Shown piece after piece: positions 1-25,521 of a stretch of 64,000 nt of DNA. The notes under the pieces are model-generated. The model was not told the DNA's origin and ran no database searches. It saw only the letters and a list, made by a program, of their open reading frames with translations. Origin of the DNA: Ignavibacteria bacterium. GTDB lineage: Bacteria > Bacteroidota > Ignavibacteria > Ch128b. Position 1 is the first letter of the stretch. Each line of letters starts with the position of its first letter. The DNA lies in the NCBI GenBank assembly GCA_013177855.1, contig JABLYA010000006.1:1-64000 (forward strand), written 5' to 3'. A program made the translations under genes and the position numbers.

Positions 1-1
1 T

Positions 2-118
2 GAAGCTTTTCGCAATGGTAATCTGGGCATTATGGATTACTATCGAATAAAAAATATACAAGCCGACACCAATATGCGCGATTCTTTATCAAAAGGAAAT
101 AATATTGATTCAAAATAA
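2..118 (+). CDS. floA: C-terminal fragment of a FloA-like (UPF0365) flotillin, host-like
   Basis: An open frame enters from the left edge and stops with TAA at 116-118. The 38 residues include [20 protein letters not shown] and ADTNMRDS, which I recognise as the conserved end of FloA/UPF0365 proteins. These are membrane-raft scaffold proteins of bacteria, including Bacteroidota. Codon use is mixed (GCC, GAC, CTG, CGC) and less A/T-biased than the phage genes to the right. The fragment is followed by a TATATTTG promoter and a tRNA-Ser, an ordinary chromosomal arrangement. I read this as bacterial DNA joined to phage DNA near position 224. The family call is from memory of the motif and rests on the C-terminus only. 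Confidence 0.65.
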
Positions 119-143
119 TTTTTTTTTTAATTTAAAAAATTCC

Positions 144-151
144 TATATTTG
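144..151 (+). promoter_or_regulatory. Bacteroidota-type -7 box (TATATTTG) ahead of tRNA-Ser
   Basis: TATATTTG matches the TAnnTTTG -7 element of the Bacteroidota primary sigma factor. It lies 11 nt before the first base of the tRNA, in an A/T-rich leader. The -33 TTG element is not clear. Confidence 0.6.
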
Positions 152-162
152 TGCCCGCGTTT

Positions 163-224
163 GGAGAGGTGGGTGAGTGGCTGAAACCAACAGTTTGCTA
201 AACTGTCGTACTGGGTAACCGGTA
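163..224 (+). tRNA. 5' part of tRNA-Ser(GCU), truncated in the variable arm
   Basis: Readable parts: 5' acceptor strand GGAGAGG; D arm closed by GGT/ACC; anticodon stem ACAGT/ACTGT enclosing loop TTGCTAA (anticodon GCU, serine); and the start of a long class II variable arm, GTACTGGGTAACCGGTA. From 225 the sequence stops following a tRNA: the rest of the variable arm, the T arm and the 3' acceptor strand are absent, replaced by phage tail-spike coding sequence. It cannot give a functional tRNA as it stands. A phage integrating at a tRNA normally restores the 3' end, so this is not a standard attachment site. Confidence 0.8.
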
Positions 225-8188: not shown

Positions 8189-9337
8189 TTATAATATTTC
8201 TACAATTACTTCTGGATAAATATAAAATGTTTTTTCTTTTGGTTCATAAGGGATTTTATTTAAAATATATTTTATTACATTTAATTTAGCAATTCTCTTT
8301 TCATTAGAATCAACTACTACCCAAGGACAATTTTTAGTTGATGTTTTCTGAAACATTTGCTCTTTATATTTTGTGAATAAATCCCATTTAGTCATAGTCT
8401 TTTCATCATTTGGACTAAATTTCCAATATTTCAGAGGATTATTCTGTCTCATTTTGAATCTTAATTTTTGAGTGTCTTGATCAATAGAAAACCAAAATTT
8501 TATAATATAATAACCTTCTTCTAATAAACTATTTTCAAATGGAACTACCTCTTTCATAAAATTTTTATATTCTTCTTCTGAACAATAACCCATGACAGGA
8601 TCATTAACAGCTCTATTATACCAAGAACGGTCATATAATGTCATATGTCCTGGTGCTGGTAATTTTAATTTATATCTTGAAAACCAATCTTTTTTTTCTT
8701 CTTCTGTTGGAATACCAAATGTTGCAATATGACAATATTTAGGATCTAAGAATTCCGTAATAGTTTTAATTACTGAACCTTTACCTGCAGCATCACGTCC
8801 TTCAAAAATAATAACTAATTTATTTTTTGATGTTTTTAACCATTCTTGAAGTCTTAATAATTCAATCTGTAAAGGTCTTAATTCATTAATAAAGTCTTTT
8901 TTACCAACCTTTAATAATCTTTCAGATTTTAATTTTTTCAATTCATCAAACTCTTCATCATTTTCAAATTTATTAGATTTATCTTTAAAATATAATTTTA
9001 TTCTTTTAGGTAATGTTTTAATGTATGAATCAATATATTTCTCTATTCTTGCGTCAGTTATTTTAGGATTTATAGTAAGATTGTGCAAACCTCTGATGAA
9101 TGAGTCTAAGTTTAATTCATATATTGCATCTCTATCAAGAACTTTTTCGAAATTGTCTAATATCCTTTTAATATCATTCTTTTTTAATTTCTTATTAACT
9201 AAAACATCTTCTTTAACATTTAAAATGATTTTTTTTATTTTTTCTTCTAATTTCTTAGGATCTTTAAACATATTTTTAACTAAATCCAAAATAGATTCAT
9301 TAATTGTAAATACTTTGAAGTTCTTCTCTATTGCCAT
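8189..9337 (-). CDS. ppk2: Polyphosphate kinase 2 (PPK2) with N-terminal extension
   Basis: 382 aa. The C-terminal two thirds is PPK2: Walker A EGRDAAGKGS (about 179-188), LPAPGHMTLYDRSWYNRA (Walker B, lid Asp and Arg) and KFWFSIDQDTQKLRF. These enzymes transfer phosphate between polyphosphate and nucleotides, making NDP/NTP from NMP/NDP or storing polyphosphate. About 130 residues precede the kinase domain, more than usual. The extension begins MAIEKNFKVFTINESILDLV, where FKVFTINES looks like the tag of the small proteins, followed by helices. A phage PPK2 could fuel nucleotide synthesis from host polyphosphate, or act in the incoming particle if the tag directs packaging (inference). ATG spacing is normal; the upstream neighbour is convergent. 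Confidence 0.9.
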   Translation of the reverse strand: MAIEKNFKVFTINESILDLVKNMFKDPKKLEEKIKKIILNVKEDVLVNKKLKKNDIKRILDNFEKVLDRDAIYELNLDSFIRGLHNLTINPKITDARIEKYIDSYIKTLPKRIKLYFKDKSNKFENDEEFDELKKLKSERLLKVGKKDFINELRPLQIELLRLQEWLKTSKNKLVIIFEGRDAAGKGSVIKTITEFLDPKYCHIATFGIPTEEEKKDWFSRYKLKLPAPGHMTLYDRSWYNRAVNDPVMGYCSEEEYKNFMKEVVPFENSLLEEGYYIIKFWFSIDQDTQKLRFKMRQNNPLKYWKFSPNDEKTMTKWDLFTKYKEQMFQKTSTKNCPWVVVDSNEKRIAKLNVIKYILNKIPYEPKEKTFYIYPEVIVEIL

Positions 9338-9339
9338 AG

Positions 9340-9768
9340 TTATTCTAATTCATTTTTTCTTATTTTTAGTTTTTTTGTTGTAGTAACTTTCATAACACCT
9401 TCAATAGCAAATCCTTTTCTATAACCTCTGTTTTCTTTATTTTTAACAAAATAAACTTTACCTTGTGAAACAAAAGTTTTTTCTATACCATCAATTGTTT
9501 CATCCTCAGACATATGTAATTCTTTTTCATCTTTTGCAATATAAATAGCGAAATTTGAAAATCCAAATTTATTAAATTTCCACATACAATCCCATTTTTT
9601 TGCTTCACTTCTTTTGTTTGTTATATAGATGTAAGCATCCGCTTGAGATGAATCTTTAACTTCAATTAGAATTAGATTTGCATCTTCTGGAGAAGTCATT
9701 TCAATCATTATTTGAGAAAAACAACAATTAAATAACATTAAAAACAATATAGTTACTAACAATTTCAT
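9340..9768 (-). CDS. Secreted protein, DUF6150-like
   Basis: 142 aa from ATG 9768 (MKLLVTILFLMLFNCCFSQ). The first 19 residues form a signal peptide with a probable cleavage after FS, a typical Bacteroidota pattern. The mature part has KDSSQADAYIYITNKRSEAK, CMWKFNKFGFSNFAIYIAKD and KVYFVKNKENRGYRKGFAI. Short strand repeats of the kind (K..SQAD..IYxT) are found in the DUF6150 family of Bacteroidota secreted proteins. The upstream in-frame extension to 9888 runs through an RNA hairpin and is not coding. Ends 3 nt before ppk2. A phage-borne exported protein may alter the infected cell surface; function unknown. Confidence 0.55.
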   Translation of the reverse strand: MKLLVTILFLMLFNCCFSQIMIEMTSPEDANLILIEVKDSSQADAYIYITNKRSEAKKWDCMWKFNKFGFSNFAIYIAKDEKELHMSEDETIDGIEKTFVSQGKVYFVKNKENRGYRKGFAIEGVMKVTTTKKLKIRKNELE

Positions 9769-16204: not shown

Positions 16205-16848
16205 TGGAAATTACAATTAAAAATATTGAAAAATCAATAAAGAAAATATTAGGTGATTCTGATATTTTGAATTCTGATTCAGTATATGAACATATTGATG
16301 GTTCTGATAATTTAAAATTAGTTATTTTTATAAATAAAATGTTTGGCGAAAATACGATTTTATATACAAAACTTATTTTTAAAGTCAATAATGGTAAAAC
16401 AAAACTAATAAATAATTCATTTTTATATCTTTATGATATAAATTGTCAATATGTTAATGTTGATTTTTCAGATATTAATGACTTTGAAAAGAAACTTAAA
16501 AGTATATTTCACAATAATAAATTTGGTCCAGATTTAAAAATACTATCAGATTTTATTGAAAAACCTGCATTTTTAATAAACGATTGGTTTAAAAAAAATC
16601 ATATAAATGAAATAAATGTTTCTAATGTAAAATATGAACCAAAAGCATATATAATACCTTGTAAATCATTATTTTTTCCGTTTATAATAAGTGCTAATAA
16701 TATTGATATACCATTTAGTATAAAAAAAGAACATTCTGAATATATGTTAAGTTTTCAGATAAATAGCGAAACTATAAACGTTGAATTAAATAATTTAAAA
16801 AATTTGATTCAAAACATAGGAATAACAATAAAAAATAAACTTAAATAA
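16204..16848 (+). CDS. Baseplate-cluster protein of unknown function
   Basis: 214 aa, MEITIKNIEKSIKKILGDSD onward. Overlaps the genes before and after by TAATG stop/start junctions, so it is made together with them. Predicted alpha/beta, Lys/Asn-rich, no known motif. The size and place directly before the gp6-like gene recall T4 gp53, but I see no sequence proof. Confidence 0.55.
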   Translation: MEITIKNIEKSIKKILGDSDILNSDSVYEHIDGSDNLKLVIFINKMFGENTILYTKLIFKVNNGKTKLINNSFLYLYDINCQYVNVDFSDINDFEKKLKSIFHNNKFGPDLKILSDFIEKPAFLINDWFKKNHINEINVSNVKYEPKAYIIPCKSLFFPFIISANNIDIPFSIKKEHSEYMLSFQINSETINVELNNLKNLIQNIGITIKNKLK

Positions 16849-18800
16849 TGGCAACAAAAAACAGATTTTTTGAATTTATTGAATTGAAATATGATGATTT
16901 AACTTCACAGATTAATAATTGGTTGAAAAATCTTTATGGACGTTCTGCTATAAATTTAAATTCTGCATCACCATATGGACAAATTATAAATGTTGTTAAA
17001 GAATTGTTTCAACATAATATACTTTATCTTAAAAATTCGGTAAAAATTTTAGATATAGAAACAACTCAAAATAAAAAAATTGCACAACAAACAGCTCGTA
17101 TATCTGGTTATAATATTTGTAGGTCAATATCTGCTTCAGGTACATTGAAATTTAAACTTAAACCAGGTATTGATATTGCAACAAGTATAAAAGATTCTGT
17201 TGTTATTATTCAAAATGGTTTAGTTATAAAAAATAAAACCAATTCGTTAAAATATGTTGTCAATCTTAATGTTGAAAAGAATATATTTCCTATTACAAAT
17301 GCTATGAATTATTTCTTTATTCCAATTATACAAGGTGTTTATGAAACACAAAGATTTACTGGGACTGGAAGGAAAAATCAATCATTTAGTGTAAATGTAC
17401 CTAGCAACAGACAAGTAGAAAATTTTAATTATAAAATAAGCATAAATGGCACTCCATTAAATATTAAAGATAGTATCTGGGACATGTTGCCAAATGAATA
17501 TGCTTGTGTTGTTAAGAGTGGTTTCAATGGCGGTATAGACATATATTTTGGTACAGGTCAATATGGAATAGTTCCAGCCAACGGCGCTTCAATAGAAGTT
17601 AAATACTTATTATCAGATGGTGTTGATGGTGAAATATTGAATCCTATTTCAAATGATTGGAAAATAGAAGGTGATATAACAGATGGTCAAGGTAATATAT
17701 TAAATATAAGTAATTTATTTGATATATTTGTTGAAACAGATATAAATTTTGCATCAAATGGTGAATCATTAGCATTTATAAAAACAGCTATACCTTATGT
17801 TTCAAGAAACTTCGTATTGGCTACTCCTAATCAATTTATTTTTCATTTAAAGAGATTGAATATGTTTTCAAAAGTTAATGCTTTTAATAAATTAGAAGAT
17901 AATAATTTTAGTGTTAATGAAGCTATGATTGAAAGTAGTATAAAAAAAATAAATCAAGACATTAATCAAAATAAGAGTAGATCACAAATATTGGCAGATT
18001 TAGCAAATTTTAATAATTTATATGCACAATACAAGAATAATATGAATGATAATGAAATTTATTTATATTTAATTCCTGATATTAAAAAATATTTTAATAA
18101 TGAAATTAATTATTTCAATATTCCTTTTGATGCATTTTATTTAGATTCTGATGAACAAAACAAAATATTACAATATCTAAGACAACTTGGTACTATGTCT
18201 ATTACAACCGATATTAAAATAATTCAACCAGTTATATCAAGATATGTAATGCACGTTTATATAAGAAGATTTGACTACGCAAATGAAGATAATATAAGAC
18301 AAGAAATTATTGCTAAAACATCTGATTATTTCTTATCAAATGAAAGATTTGATAGGATACCTAAATCTGATTTTATAAAATTGTTTAAAGAAATTGACGG
18401 TGTGGATTCAGTTTCAATTTATTTTGTTTGTAAAAAGAATGAAGATTATCATCGAAAAGCTTCAGATTTAGGTTATGTAAAACCAGCGCCTCAATCAAAA
18501 TATCAAATAGGCCAAATATCACAAACATTTGAAAGAGCAAAAATAAAAGATAAAGTTCAACCTATTTTACAACAGAGTTTTAAAGTTGTTAATGGTATTG
18601 CAAAATCAAATAGTGCTTATAATCAAGATATCTCACTTGGAATTGATAATGTACACGGTGATATTATTTGCGATAAGAATGAATACGCTATTATTAGAGG
18701 CGGTTGGAGAGATAGAAAAGGTATATGGTATAATGAAGGTACAGATAGTGATTCACTAAATAGTATAAACGTAATATTTAATGGTGTTACTCAAAAATAA
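16848..18800 (+). CDS. Baseplate wedge protein, gp6/baseplate J-like
   Basis: 650 aa, close to T4 gp6 (660 aa). The N-terminus ELKYDDLTSQINNWLKNLYG ... ASPYGQIINVVKELFQHN, the segment IAQQTARISGYNICRSISAS, then FGTGQYGIVPANGASIEVKY followed by LLSDGVDGEI form the baseplate-J pattern. In it, a strand-rich domain is inserted after the first helical part, and FGDG.yG..P..G..i.v.Y..g.G..GN is the key signature. The C-terminus (VMHVYIRRF, DVDSVSIYF-like VDSVSIYF) matches the second J domain. It forms the hexameric inner ring of the baseplate around the tail tube. Third gene of a TAATG-coupled trio. Confidence 0.8.
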   Translation: MATKNRFFEFIELKYDDLTSQINNWLKNLYGRSAINLNSASPYGQIINVVKELFQHNILYLKNSVKILDIETTQNKKIAQQTARISGYNICRSISASGTLKFKLKPGIDIATSIKDSVVIIQNGLVIKNKTNSLKYVVNLNVEKNIFPITNAMNYFFIPIIQGVYETQRFTGTGRKNQSFSVNVPSNRQVENFNYKISINGTPLNIKDSIWDMLPNEYACVVKSGFNGGIDIYFGTGQYGIVPANGASIEVKYLLSDGVDGEILNPISNDWKIEGDITDGQGNILNISNLFDIFVETDINFASNGESLAFIKTAIPYVSRNFVLATPNQFIFHLKRLNMFSKVNAFNKLEDNNFSVNEAMIESSIKKINQDINQNKSRSQILADLANFNNLYAQYKNNMNDNEIYLYLIPDIKKYFNNEINYFNIPFDAFYLDSDEQNKILQYLRQLGTMSITTDIKIIQPVISRYVMHVYIRRFDYANEDNIRQEIIAKTSDYFLSNERFDRIPKSDFIKLFKEIDGVDSVSIYFVCKKNEDYHRKASDLGYVKPAPQSKYQIGQISQTFERAKIKDKVQPILQQSFKVVNGIAKSNSAYNQDISLGIDNVHGDIICDKNEYAIIRGGWRDRKGIWYNEGTDSDSLNSINVIFNGVTQK

Positions 18801-19127: not shown

Positions 19128-20795
19128 ATGATAATAACCACAGTTGTTCATGTAAAAATTCAAGGACCAAATATAAAACATTATAGACAATTAGGATATG
19201 ATGTGAAAGTTGGTGAAATTTTAACAATTCCTATAGAACATTTAAGTAAAAAATCACATCAGAAAATTAAAATAAAATGTGATGTTTGTGGAATAGAAAA
19301 AGAAACTTTTTATTTCGCATATACCAAATATTTAGAAAAATCACCAGATAATAAATATCGTTGTAATAAATGTAACATAGCATTGAGAGAAAAAACCTGT
19401 TTAGAAAAATATGGTGTTAAAAATTCAATTCAATCAGAAGAAATAAAAGAAAAAAGAACTCGATTGTTTTTAGAAAAATATGGTGTAAAACATTATAATA
19501 AATTAGATATTTTTAAAGAAAAACGAAAAAATACTAATTTAGAAAAATATGGTGTTGAATCACCTATGAAAGACGAAACAATTAAAAGTAAACAATTAAA
19601 AACAACATTTGATAAATTTGGTGTAAAATGTTCATTGCAAAATGAAAATGTTAAAATTAAAACATTAAAAACAATGAATGATAAATATGGTGTTGATTAT
19701 TCGATGCAAAATACTGAAATTAAAAAAAAGATTTTAACAAAAAGATTAGAAACAATAATAAAAAAAATTCAAGAAAAAAATAAACACATACTAAAAATAT
19801 CAAATAATATATATACTATTAAATGTGATTTATGTAATAAAACATACGAAATTAGTTCTCATATGTACTGTCAAAGACGAATACAAAACACAGTACAATG
19901 TACAATATGCAATCCAATAGGTAATAAATTTTCTGGTAAAGAAAATTTATTACTAAATTTTATAAAAGAAAATTATAATGGTGAAATTATATTAAATTGT
20001 AGAAATATTATATCTCCATATGAATTAGATATTTATTTATCTAATTTAAATTTAGCTTTTGAATTTAATGGTTTATATTGGCATAGTGAATTATATAAAG
20101 ATAAAAATTATCATATAAATAAAACAGATTTATGTCAAGAAAAAGGAATTCAATTAATTCACATTTGGGAAGATGATTGGAATTTTAAACAAGATATAGT
20201 TAAATCAATGATTCTAAATAAATTAGGTAAAACACCAAATAAAATTTATGCTAGAAAGTGTAAAATCAAAGAAATAAATGATAATAAATTAGTTAGAAAA
20301 TTTTTGGACGAAAATCATATACAAGGACATATTGGATCTAGTGTAAAAATAGGTTTGTTTTATAATGATGAATTAGTGTCTTTAATGACTTTTGGTAAAA
20401 AACGAGTTTTTATGAATTCAGTTTCAAAAGAAGATGAGTGGGAACTTTTAAGATTTTGTAATAAATTAAATACTAATGTTATAGGTGCTGCAAGTAAATT
20501 ATTTAAATATTTTACTAAAAATTTTACATTTACAGAAATAACTACATATGCAGATAGAAGTCATTCTAATGGTAAATTGTATGAAACAATTGGCTTAAAA
20601 TTTATAAGTAAAACAAATCCAAACTATTATTATGTAATAGACGGTATAAGAAAACATAGATTTGGGTTTAGGAAAAATGTTTTAGTTGATAAAGGTTATG
20701 ATAAAAATAAATCTGAACATGAAATTATGTTAGAAAGAGAAATAAATAGAATTTATGATTCAGGATCACTTAAATATATATTTCAAAAATTTTAG
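19128..20795 (+). CDS. Free-standing homing endonuclease, VSR/EDxHD-like
   Basis: 555 aa in four parts: an N-terminal zinc-ribbon-like segment (CDVCGIEKETFY...CNKCN); five tandem copies of a LEKYGV..(S/P)..(Q/K).EEIK-type DNA-binding repeat (NUMOD-like, residues about 85-205); a second CxxC segment (CDLCNKTYEI...CTICNP); and a VSR-like nuclease core (SPYELDIYLSNLNLAFEFNG, YWHSELY, GIQLIHIWEDDW). A C-terminal GNAT-like domain (DENHIQGHIGSSVKIGLFYN, LLRFCNKLN, TYADRSHSNGKLY) follows. This layout is known from mobile endonucleases of T4-like and SPO1-like phages, which cut related phages that lack the gene. It interrupts the baseplate cluster and has the low G+C of an old resident. Confidence 0.8.
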   Translation: MIITTVVHVKIQGPNIKHYRQLGYDVKVGEILTIPIEHLSKKSHQKIKIKCDVCGIEKETFYFAYTKYLEKSPDNKYRCNKCNIALREKTCLEKYGVKNSIQSEEIKEKRTRLFLEKYGVKHYNKLDIFKEKRKNTNLEKYGVESPMKDETIKSKQLKTTFDKFGVKCSLQNENVKIKTLKTMNDKYGVDYSMQNTEIKKKILTKRLETIIKKIQEKNKHILKISNNIYTIKCDLCNKTYEISSHMYCQRRIQNTVQCTICNPIGNKFSGKENLLLNFIKENYNGEIILNCRNIISPYELDIYLSNLNLAFEFNGLYWHSELYKDKNYHINKTDLCQEKGIQLIHIWEDDWNFKQDIVKSMILNKLGKTPNKIYARKCKIKEINDNKLVRKFLDENHIQGHIGSSVKIGLFYNDELVSLMTFGKKRVFMNSVSKEDEWELLRFCNKLNTNVIGAASKLFKYFTKNFTFTEITTYADRSHSNGKLYETIGLKFISKTNPNYYYVIDGIRKHRFGFRKNVLVDKGYDKNKSEHEIMLEREINRIYDSGSLKYIFQKF

Positions 20796-22598: not shown

Positions 22599-23591
22599 TT
22601 ATGTGCGTTTGGTATGATTTAAATGTTTATTTTCAGGTTTTGTATAATTTAATATTGGTCTTAAATGTTTTATATTAGAATTTGTTGGTTTTGTATAACT
22701 ATTGTTAGGTTTTGTATAATATTTAGAATCATTATATACAGGTTTAGTATGTTCTAAATATTCAATAGGTTTATTTTCTGGTTTAATGTAAGTTGGTCTT
22801 TCATTAATAAGTGGTTTAACTGGTTCAATTGGTTTAACTACTGGTTTAACTGGTTCAATTGGTTTAACTACTGGTTTAACTGGTTCAATTGGTTTAACTA
22901 CTGGTTTAACTGGTTCAATTGGTTTAACCGTTTCAACACTTACAGGTTTATATATATTAATAGTAGGTTTGTTTTCGTTAATAAGTGTACCATTATTTGT
23001 ATTATCTCTTGTACCAGATGTGCTTCCATCATTTCTATGACCATAATAATTATCGTTTGTTCTATAAGTATACCAATCATTATGATAACTCCAATAATTT
23101 TGATAATTCAAATAATAACTATAATACCAATAATTATAACCATAATATTCATACCAATCATAATTCCAATATGGTAAATAATAAGGTATATAATAATGAT
23201 AAGGTATATAATAGTAATAATGATAAGGTATATAATAGTAATAATAAGGCATTGACCAATAAAAATGAACTACACCAATTGAGCCAAGGTATCTATATGT
23301 ATAATATGTTGAATAATAACCACCATAATAATATGGACTATGAAATCTTTTAATTCTTTGTGTATAATAATAATTGTAGTCATCATAATCTATTTCATAA
23401 TCTATTGTGTATATACTTTTTTTAATATAAGTTAAAGAATCTTTTTGAATTGTATCAATTTTAACAGAATCAATTACAGTAATTTCTTTTTTTACATTTT
23501 TTGGGTAATAATAAATATCATCTTCATATATTTGTGAATATGAGAAGATACTTGCTAAAATTAGCATTGATATAAATAATATTGTTTTCAT
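22599..23591 (-). CDS. Tyr-rich secreted protein with KPIEPVKPVV repeats
   Basis: 330 aa with a signal peptide (MKTILFISMLILASIFSYSQ). Three parts follow: a leader with IDSVKIDTIQKDSLTY; a centre (about 75-185) with extreme tyrosine content (YYYYYIPYHYYYYIPYHYY and similar); and a C-terminal half with almost four copies of a ten-residue KPIEPVKPVV repeat, then KP/NYTKP motifs. The Pro/Lys part looks like a periplasm-spanning stalk and the Tyr-rich part like a surface-adhesive or membrane-interacting module. No enzyme motif. Exported phage proteins can block superinfection or act on the envelope; that is speculation. Single gene between small tagged genes and the fibre array. Confidence 0.55.
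   Translation of the reverse strand: MKTILFISMLILASIFSYSQIYEDDIYYYPKNVKKEITVIDSVKIDTIQKDSLTYIKKSIYTIDYEIDYDDYNYYYTQRIKRFHSPYYYGGYYSTYYTYRYLGSIGVVHFYWSMPYYYYYIPYHYYYYIPYHYYIPYYLPYWNYDWYEYYGYNYWYYSYYLNYQNYWSYHNDWYTYRTNDNYYGHRNDGSTSGTRDNTNNGTLINENKPTINIYKPVSVETVKPIEPVKPVVKPIEPVKPVVKPIEPVKPVVKPIEPVKPLINERPTYIKPENKPIEYLEHTKPVYNDSKYYTKPNNSYTKPTNSNIKHLRPILNYTKPENKHLNHTKRT
22813..22928 (-). repeat. 30-bp tandem repeat, about 3.9 copies
   Basis: Near-perfect 30-bp units (plus-strand core GGTTTAACTGGTTCAATT then GGTTTAACTACT) inside the Tyr-rich secreted protein gene; each encodes KPIEPVKPVV. Because the unit is a multiple of three, copy-number changes keep the frame and would change stalk length. Confidence 0.8.
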
Positions 23592-23660
23592 AATTTAAAA
23601 TATTTTTTATTTTAAAAACAATTATAATGCCAAATTCTTTTAAAAAATTAAAATTATTCT

Positions 23661-23737
23661 ATGAATAAAACAAAAAAAAAAACGATATTGAAATCATGTC
23701 GCCGGTTGGCTCTTACGAGACTCTCATGGCAGCGATA
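23661..23737 (+). pseudogene. Host-like fragment: start of a U32 peptidase gene
   Basis: At 23684-23737 the plus strand reads DIEIMSPVGSYETLMAAI, the N-terminal signature of U32-family peptidases. An ATG at 23661 would join in frame after a one-base correction in the A-run (23672-23682). After codon AAI the sequence leaves the family (GFKKTNEKK) and a stop follows. These 54 bases are about half G+C by my count, against roughly a quarter in the surrounding phage DNA, and use codons rare here (TCG, CCG, GGC, GAG, CTC, GCG). It lies antisense to the end of a fibre operon. I read it as a captured scrap of the host chromosome. Confidence 0.55.
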
Positions 23738-23785
23738 GGATTCAAGAAAACCAATGAAAAAAAAAACTTTGAAATACATCTATAA

Positions 23786-25521
23786 TTAGTGGACAACAAC
23801 AACTTTTTTACCATTATTTCGTTGCCATTATTTACAAATGGTATACCACCAATATATGTGTTAGCTGACACCCATAAATTCACCCATTGCTTATCAGAAG
23901 CACCTAAATCCCAAGTATTTGTAATGTTTGGTAAGAAGTCAGCGTAACTTGTTGTTGCTGATGTTGTTGGGTTAAATGATAAGAATGATTTATCTTGATA
24001 GAATATTGTAGATACATAAATTCTTTTCCAAGTATTTGAAGCATTTCCTAAACTATAGTCTGCATCGTTTGGAACAACATTACCATAGATTGTACCACCA
24101 GAAATTGAATAGTATAATCCATCAAAATTAGGTTCATTTTGAATATATGACCAATCTAAATTACCTTCTAATGTAGTTGCTGAAACAGTTGTTGCAGTTA
24201 ATGTTGGAACTGTTAAAGTACCAGTCATTGTGTCACCCGTTTTGAAAACAAATTTTGCATCTGCTGCTGCTTGTGTATAGAATGATGTATTTGCTGACAA
24301 GAAGTTGGCATTTGATTGTCCTGTTGTATAGGCATCATATATACCATAACCAGCCAATGTTGTAGGTTTATTCTGTATGTAAACCCAATCTAAGTTACCA
24401 TGAAATGTGATTGCTGAAACAGTTGTGGCTGTCAATTTTGGAACTGTTAAAGTACCAGTCATTGTGTCACCATTTGTATTAACAAATACATCATCTATTG
24501 TTTGACCATTATAGTTAATAGTTGTTGCACTTAAATTAGTAATTGTACCATTTGTTGAGTTAAATGTAGTTGCTGTGGCATTTGTAATATTAGATGTTGT
24601 TAACCAAGAAGTTGTTGCGGTTAAATTTGATAAGCTAAGATTTGTTGTAGATACTGTACCAACGAATGTACCATAGAATGTGTTACCTGTTACATTACCT
24701 GTAATATTAGCATTATCACTTAACCATAACGTTGAACCACTATATACAAGATTAGTTGTTGTATCAAGTCTATATAGACTTGCATTCCAGAAAGCAATAC
24801 CATAAGAAATAGGAATATCTTCTCTTGTAGCAACGGCTTGTGTACCACCAGTTGGGTTTGCAGATTCTCCTATTCTAAAATTATCTTGCATTTCATCAAA
24901 TACAAAAATGTAATTATCTAATGCGCCTCTATCAACTTCAATACCTGAAAATAACATTGTAACACCAGAACCAGTTTCTCCTGAGTTTATTGTGATCATG
25001 TTATCTTTAACATTCAATTGCTCAGTATTTACATATGTTGTTGTACCTGATACATACAAATTACCTGTCATATTAACATTACCAGAAACTGTTAATGCTT
25101 GTTGACCTGTTTTGTTAATTATTAATTCACCAGTCATCGTATCACCAGTTTTGTAAACAAACTTAGTGTCTGCTTCTGATTGTGTATAGAAAGATGTATT
25201 TGCTGATAAAAAATTATTATTTGATTGTTCTATTGTATAAACATCTGTTATACCATAACCAGATGATGTTGTAGGTGTATTTGTTATGTAACTCCAATCT
25301 AAATCACCATAAAATGTAGTTGCAGTAATATTGCCTACATTGTTAATACCATTTGTATTTATAGTTGTATCAAAGGTATTAGCACTTAAGAAATTATTAT
25401 CAATTTCTGTAGCAGTATATATAGTTGCACCTGTCCATTTACCACTGCTATATACAATGGTTTGACCTGATTGTATTCCATTAAAATTAGGACTTAAACC
25501 AATAAATGTTTTTTGACTCAT
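23786..25521 (-). CDS. Tail fibre protein (602-aa frame, probable frameshift at end)
   Basis: Starts MSQKTFIGLSPNFNGIQSGQ. It contains alternating docking/shaft modules: ATTFYGDLDWSYITNTPTT, SANTSFYTQSEADTKF, TGDTMTGELIINKTG, and the DNMITINSGETGSGV ... IEVDRGALDNYIFVFDE module shared with the 994- and 910-aa fibres. As written it runs to 23713 with an odd tail. Adding one A to the A6 run (plus strand T6 at 23804-23809) gives the clean ending EIMVKKVVVVH with the stop at 23786. No tip domain like those of its neighbours is present, so it may be a proximal fibre part. Preceded by a TTTAATATATAA motif at 25548-25559. Confidence 0.75.

Follow-up and report, generated by a model that had tools for sequence, protein, structure and literature searches.

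The DNA analysed here, called the window in the following, comprises bases 1-64000 of contig C6, which is 212,658 bp long and sits in the 3.66 Mb bin G000. It carries the start of a bacterial U32 peptidase gene in the gap between two genes of phage type, which raises the question of how this piece of a cellular gene came to be there and whether it serves any function for the phage.

The U32 segment

An earlier note on this DNA had claimed that positions 23684-23737 encode the N-terminus of U32 peptidases and have about twice the local G+C, and both points are borne out by the translation (DIEIMSPVGSYETLMAAI) and by a G+C content of 48.1% compared to a mean of 26.2% for the whole of C6 (Table 1). 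Stretches of 54 bases that are equally G+C-rich account for 0.29% in the window and for 0.50% in the whole contig. The nucleotide search that had been proposed likewise returned a bacterial U32 gene, matching at 45 of 51 bases in the Bacteroidales MAG G477; as a blastn search with the whole of C6 against 1.69 Mb of this MAG found the piece with E = 4e-9, the match is not due to chance.

Translation and alignment with family members place the N-terminal motif of the U32 family in the segment, whereas an intact reading frame and the PF01136 core domain are absent. The U32 sequence ends after ..LMAAI and is left at position 23737, where ..AAI is followed by GFKK in place of QGGA; the PF01136 match in the G477 protein starts at residue 80. 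The phage piece thus resembles the start of a bacterial U32 peptidase gene (PF01136 family) in its peptide, its DNA, its start codon and probably also in the overlap with a glycosyltransferase-9 (GT9) gene on the 5' side. It differs in that it comprises the first ~26 codons only, has none of the PF01136 core, is frameshifted from its ATG and sits inside a phage.

Table 1. Features of the window around the U32 piece and elsewhere.
Positions	Strand	Feature	Basis or remark
1..224	+	floA end and tRNA-Ser(GCT), the latter truncated to its 5' part and joined there to a phage ORF	bacterial piece
16848..18800	+	baseplate wedge protein	47% over 99% to LR756501 (735 kb); Lak phages 27%
19128..20795	+	Hef-like homing endonuclease	45% to LR756500; annotated homing endonucleases among matches
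22599..23591	-	next same-strand ORF, secreted-type tyrosine-rich protein	captured piece in its upstream gap
23638..23668	+	possible captured 3' end of glycosyltransferase-9 gene (..NSFKKLKLFYE, then stop)	stop overlaps U32 ATG; boundary approximate, inferred
23661..23683	+	probable start and first codons (ATGAATAAAACA, then A-run)	frame shifted by one base relative to U32 peptide
23684..23737	+	probable captured core: codons for DIEIMSPVGSYETLMAAI, N-terminus of Bacteroidales U32 peptidase	translation, G+C, G477 alignment, family pattern matches
23738..23788	.	spacer, captured piece to fibre 3' end	no significant match to G477 or elsewhere in C6
23713..25521	-	tail-fibre-like ORF, frame runs into captured piece and stops inside	PHROG tail-fibre matches, translation

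The host-derived stretch is longer than the 54-base core and includes the ATG at 23661: ATGAANAAA of the phage copy matches ATGAACAAA of G477, the start codon of the G477 U32 gene. Read from this ATG, the sequence leaves the U32 frame by one base at the A-run 23672-23682, and therefore no U32 peptide would be made from it. An overlap between the U32 ATG and the 3' end of the preceding gene is present in G477, G479 and G481, and in G480 the two either overlap or abut; the upstream genes of the relatives end in ..FYEQTI, ..FYAS, ..YYEKQS and ..FYNE, each followed by the stop codon. In G477 this gene encodes a glycosyltransferase of family 9 (PF01075). The phage copy, TTCTATGAATAA, encodes ..LFYE and a stop in one frame, and the other frame gives ATGAATAAA, an arrangement as in G477 (TTTTATGAACAAA). 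Because this overlap is seen in the relatives, the host-derived stretch would extend leftward and span ~23640 to 23737, the left edge being uncertain within flanks that are A/T-rich on both sides. The junctions of the piece carry no clear signature.

The contig as a probable fragment of a huge Bacteroidetes phage

C6 carries genes for tail-fibre, baseplate wedge, homing endonuclease, DNA helicase and methyltransferase proteins, and the genes beside the baseplate protein are syntenic with LR756501. By this baseplate comparison, rather than by a phylogeny of the clade, C6 shares a structural module with phages of the Mahaphage type. The largest huge-phage genomes and the Lak phages fall within the Mahaphage clade, and Bacteroidetes are their predicted hosts (Al-Shayeb 2020, PMC7162821). 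Due to the baseplate and synteny match to LR756501 and these predicted hosts, C6 is probably a fragment of a huge, Mahaphage-like Bacteroidetes phage and perhaps misplaced in bin G000. In contrast to the 735-kb LR756501, with which it has the syntenic, 47% identical baseplate module in common, C6 is incomplete at its 212,658 bp, and within the compared stretches of Mahaphage-type phages nothing corresponds to its fibre region or to the captured piece. Relatives of the fibre protein and of a neighbouring protein were not found in viral contigs. As a search of bin G000 revealed no U32 gene, the donor of the piece is not the organism binned together with C6.

The donor family

A degenerate DNA pattern for I-M-S-P-V-G-S-[YF]-E-T-L-M-A-A was scanned over 84,980 species genomes and matched in two contigs, L021 of the Bacteroidales MAG G477 and L020 of the Bacteroidetes MAG CG23 (G478), both of which belong to one Bacteroidales family of ten genomes (G477-G486). 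Over positions 23687-23737, the phage piece agrees with G477 at 45/51 bases and with G478 at 40/51, and all six and all 11 differences, respectively, are synonymous; the identities are 41/51 for G481, 40/51 for G479 and 35/51 for G480, while U32 genes from other genomes of the phylum (n=30) reach at most 35/51. An exact 26-mer of the fragment is absent from the genome contigs, so that the exact donor was not found among them, and when 395 genomes of the phylum were searched at the DNA level, practically all matches were due to A-runs. With 45/51 for G477 against ≤35/51 for these 30 genes, the donor is most likely an unsampled member of the G477-G486 family that is closest to G477. The fact that the piece differs from the U32 start of the family by synonymous changes only suggests that its divergence took place while it was part of a functional host gene, with hardly any decay thereafter. 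A Bacteroidales donor also fits the phage's relatives, which are huge Bacteroidetes phages (PMC7162821).

Assembly of the contig

A Bacteroidales organism of the same sample might have contributed DNA that chimeric reads or the assembler joined into C6 in error. An exact match to the first 127 bases of C6 is present in G479:C3, and the last 127 bases of the contig, C6:212532-212658 (L027 8532-8658), are the first 127 bases of G479:C72. Since exactly 127 bp are common at both ends, we infer that C6 and G479 very likely stem from one k=127 assembly graph, in which the ends of C6 would be two branch points, and for this reason the ends are unreliable as biology. The fusion of floA/tRNA-Ser to a phage ORF inside the tRNA at the left end may itself be a product of assembly, and the U32 piece has A-rich sequence at its junctions, as a false join might have it. 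However, the U32 piece is internal and shorter than 127 bp, so that some k=127 k-mers should hold the whole piece together with both flanks; such spanning k-mers could in principle be supplied by contigs carried over from smaller k. Moreover, two independent false joins would be needed, G479 with its 40/51 is not the donor, and diverged self-derived pieces (96-98% identity, see below) suggest that fragments were really captured in this phage. A check of run lengths gave no sign of truncated homopolymer runs in C6. An artefact of assembly is, on balance, rather unlikely. As a separate observation, G479:C72 reads on into a tail tape-measure-like ORF.

Other short scraps on the contig

The U32 piece is accompanied by similar scraps elsewhere on C6, which supports its interpretation as captured DNA. 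The gene in window 1-224, which we take to be floA (flotillin-like, UPF0365), lies in a stretch that is identical to G479 except for one T in a T-run (T10 vs T9) and 85% identical to G477. C6:206430-206544 (115 bp) is identical to G479:C23:4285-4399 of the same Bacteroidales bin. Two further pieces, C6:207735-207935 and 207934-208071, come from fibre genes of the phage itself, with 98% and 96% identity to their sources, and are joined in opposite orientation without homology; their divergence of 2-4% favours real capture events. The scraps thus derive from the host lineage and from the phage itself, with a divergence of 0 to 4% where the source was identified. In a comparison with 1.98 Mb of G477 (~4/5 of 2.5 Mb), the U32 and the floA/tRNA pieces are the only clear short bacterial scraps; apart from them, the comparison gave a tRNA gene and homologues of whole genes carried by the phage. 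A short match of high identity at C6:123124-123196 was rejected as a captured scrap, as it is a phage tRNA-Arg. Nor are the captured pieces gene starts throughout, as those derived from the phage itself comprise a gene end and fragments from the interior of fibre genes.

That phages take up foreign scraps is known as such, and less ordinary is their number on one contig. C6:205940-208330 (L027 1940-4330) and C6:211900-212658 (L027 7900-8658) form a patchwork of fibre-gene fragments and host-like sequence between small ORFs, and contain repeated blocks (TAACG.TTGCAAATATAAAACGTTG) that give them a cassette-like look.

Tests for a function of the piece

The earlier note had also considered that the piece might act as a regulatory RNA decoy. 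A read-through RNA of the fibre operon would in this case silence the U32 start or titrate a host factor. The piece does cover the translation start, at which antisense RNAs usually act, and it lies antisense in a same-strand gene cluster, around it no terminator-like site being found; in addition, CRISPR spacers of huge phages may be directed at host genes (PMC7162821). However, its fold is not unusual compared to shuffled sequences (z -0.58 to +1.10), and promoter-like sites occur at the shuffled expectation in a scan that used a sigma-70 model only and not Bacteroidota promoters, so that neither a dedicated promoter nor a terminator nor a stable fold was detected. Searches of phages and viral contigs by DNA and by the degenerate pattern, a comparison with other phages that the earlier note had proposed, revealed no segment like the U32 piece. 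If the co-assembled Bacteroidales bin G479 is the present host, an antisense RNA would mismatch its U32 start at 11/51 positions. Furthermore, the remaining captured pieces, half a tRNA and fragments from within fibre genes, form no set of gene starts. Positive evidence for a decoy is thus lacking in all these searches, and we regard this role as very improbable. The piece recalls phage CRISPR mini-arrays with host-targeting spacers in that a huge phage carries a short piece of a host gene, but it has no flanking CRISPR-like repeats, the only repeat around it being a 28-base direct repeat of 75% identity that is driven by A-runs and was set aside.

Site-specific phages can carry a stretch of a host gene as attachment core, and the piece might accordingly be a core of attP type by which integration would be directed to the start of the U32 gene. 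This second option of the earlier note, a site for integration or recombination, finds no support: there is no second copy of the piece in C6 or in bin G000, which has no U32 gene, the best host match available for a core is the 45/51 of G477 (≤88% identity to known U32 starts), the piece lies between genes of the fibre operon, and the U32 genes are intact in G477, G479, G480 and G481. Such a role is extremely improbable.

A probable neutral capture of host-lineage DNA

We therefore consider it probable that the U32 piece has no function and is DNA of the host lineage, captured recently into an intergenic gap by a neutral, non-homologous event. Of the capture proposed in the earlier note, the transfer of a U32 start from a bacterium into an intergenic region of a phage is upheld, the donor family can now be named, and among the explanations offered random capture fits best. 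An ancestor of the huge phage would have infected a member of the G477-G486 family, and a fragment of ~80-100 bp spanning the GT9/U32 overlap might have been taken up during infection. Non-homologous end joining or template switching could then have joined it into the gap between the tail-fibre gene and the next gene; that the Hef-like homing endonuclease provided the double-strand break is speculative. The fragment would have survived as it disrupted nothing essential, giving the fibre ORF only its last codons and the stop, and was presumably neutral.

The capture is judged to be recent because no amelioration of the G+C content took place (48% vs 26%). It is supported by the GT9/U32 overlap that is common to the family and the phage copy, and the broken U32 frame relative to the ATG argues for a non-functional piece. 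The piece is foreign in sequence and has non-homologous borders, and its intergenic position suggests that the gap is non-essential. Capture mediated by a reverse transcriptase, as in diversity-generating retroelements, was rejected, as bin G000 contains no reverse transcriptase, which is also in line with the capture outlined above. Short non-homologous joins, a location between genes, loss of frame and mixed sources from host and self are all features of remnants of illegitimate recombination, as known from phage mosaicism and from filler DNA at break repair. The present case differs from these in that the donor is traceable to one bacterial family and that several pieces lie on one contig.

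If the capture was neutral, the piece is a small and clean example of how a past host leaves its record in a huge phage, and it indicates the Bacteroidales family to which the hosts of the phage belong, despite binning with a genome that has no U32 gene. The patchwork of fragments is a better lead than the U32 piece itself: if it is general, such scraps could mark the hosts of uncultivated huge phages and would show how these phages join broken DNA. It is conceivable, yet quite improbable, that the lineage actively collects fragments of ~50-230 bp of host, prophage and own DNA in intergenic gaps, the genome being a partial record of past hosts, and that some of them maybe act as antisense RNAs against host gene starts.

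Further observations on the contig

The protein encoded at 22599-23591 consists of a tyrosine-rich part followed by tandem KPIEPVKPVV repeats. At window positions 8189-9337 the phage contig encodes a protein with a Polyphosphate kinase 2 domain, and at C6:145488-149750 (L024 1488-5750) a protein of 1420 aa with SprB repeats, PKD domains and a CHU_C type IX secretion signal. Two related small proteins of secreted type are encoded at window 9340-9768 and C6:190323-190757 (..SPEDANLILIEV.., ..HPADADLVLLQV..) and have a homologue in G477. A DDE transposase lies in the phage contig at C6:195164-196225, its DNA being ~70% identical to G477 sequence. Finally, short repeats are common to C6 and the G000 contigs C5, C7 and C8, which may belong to the same phage.
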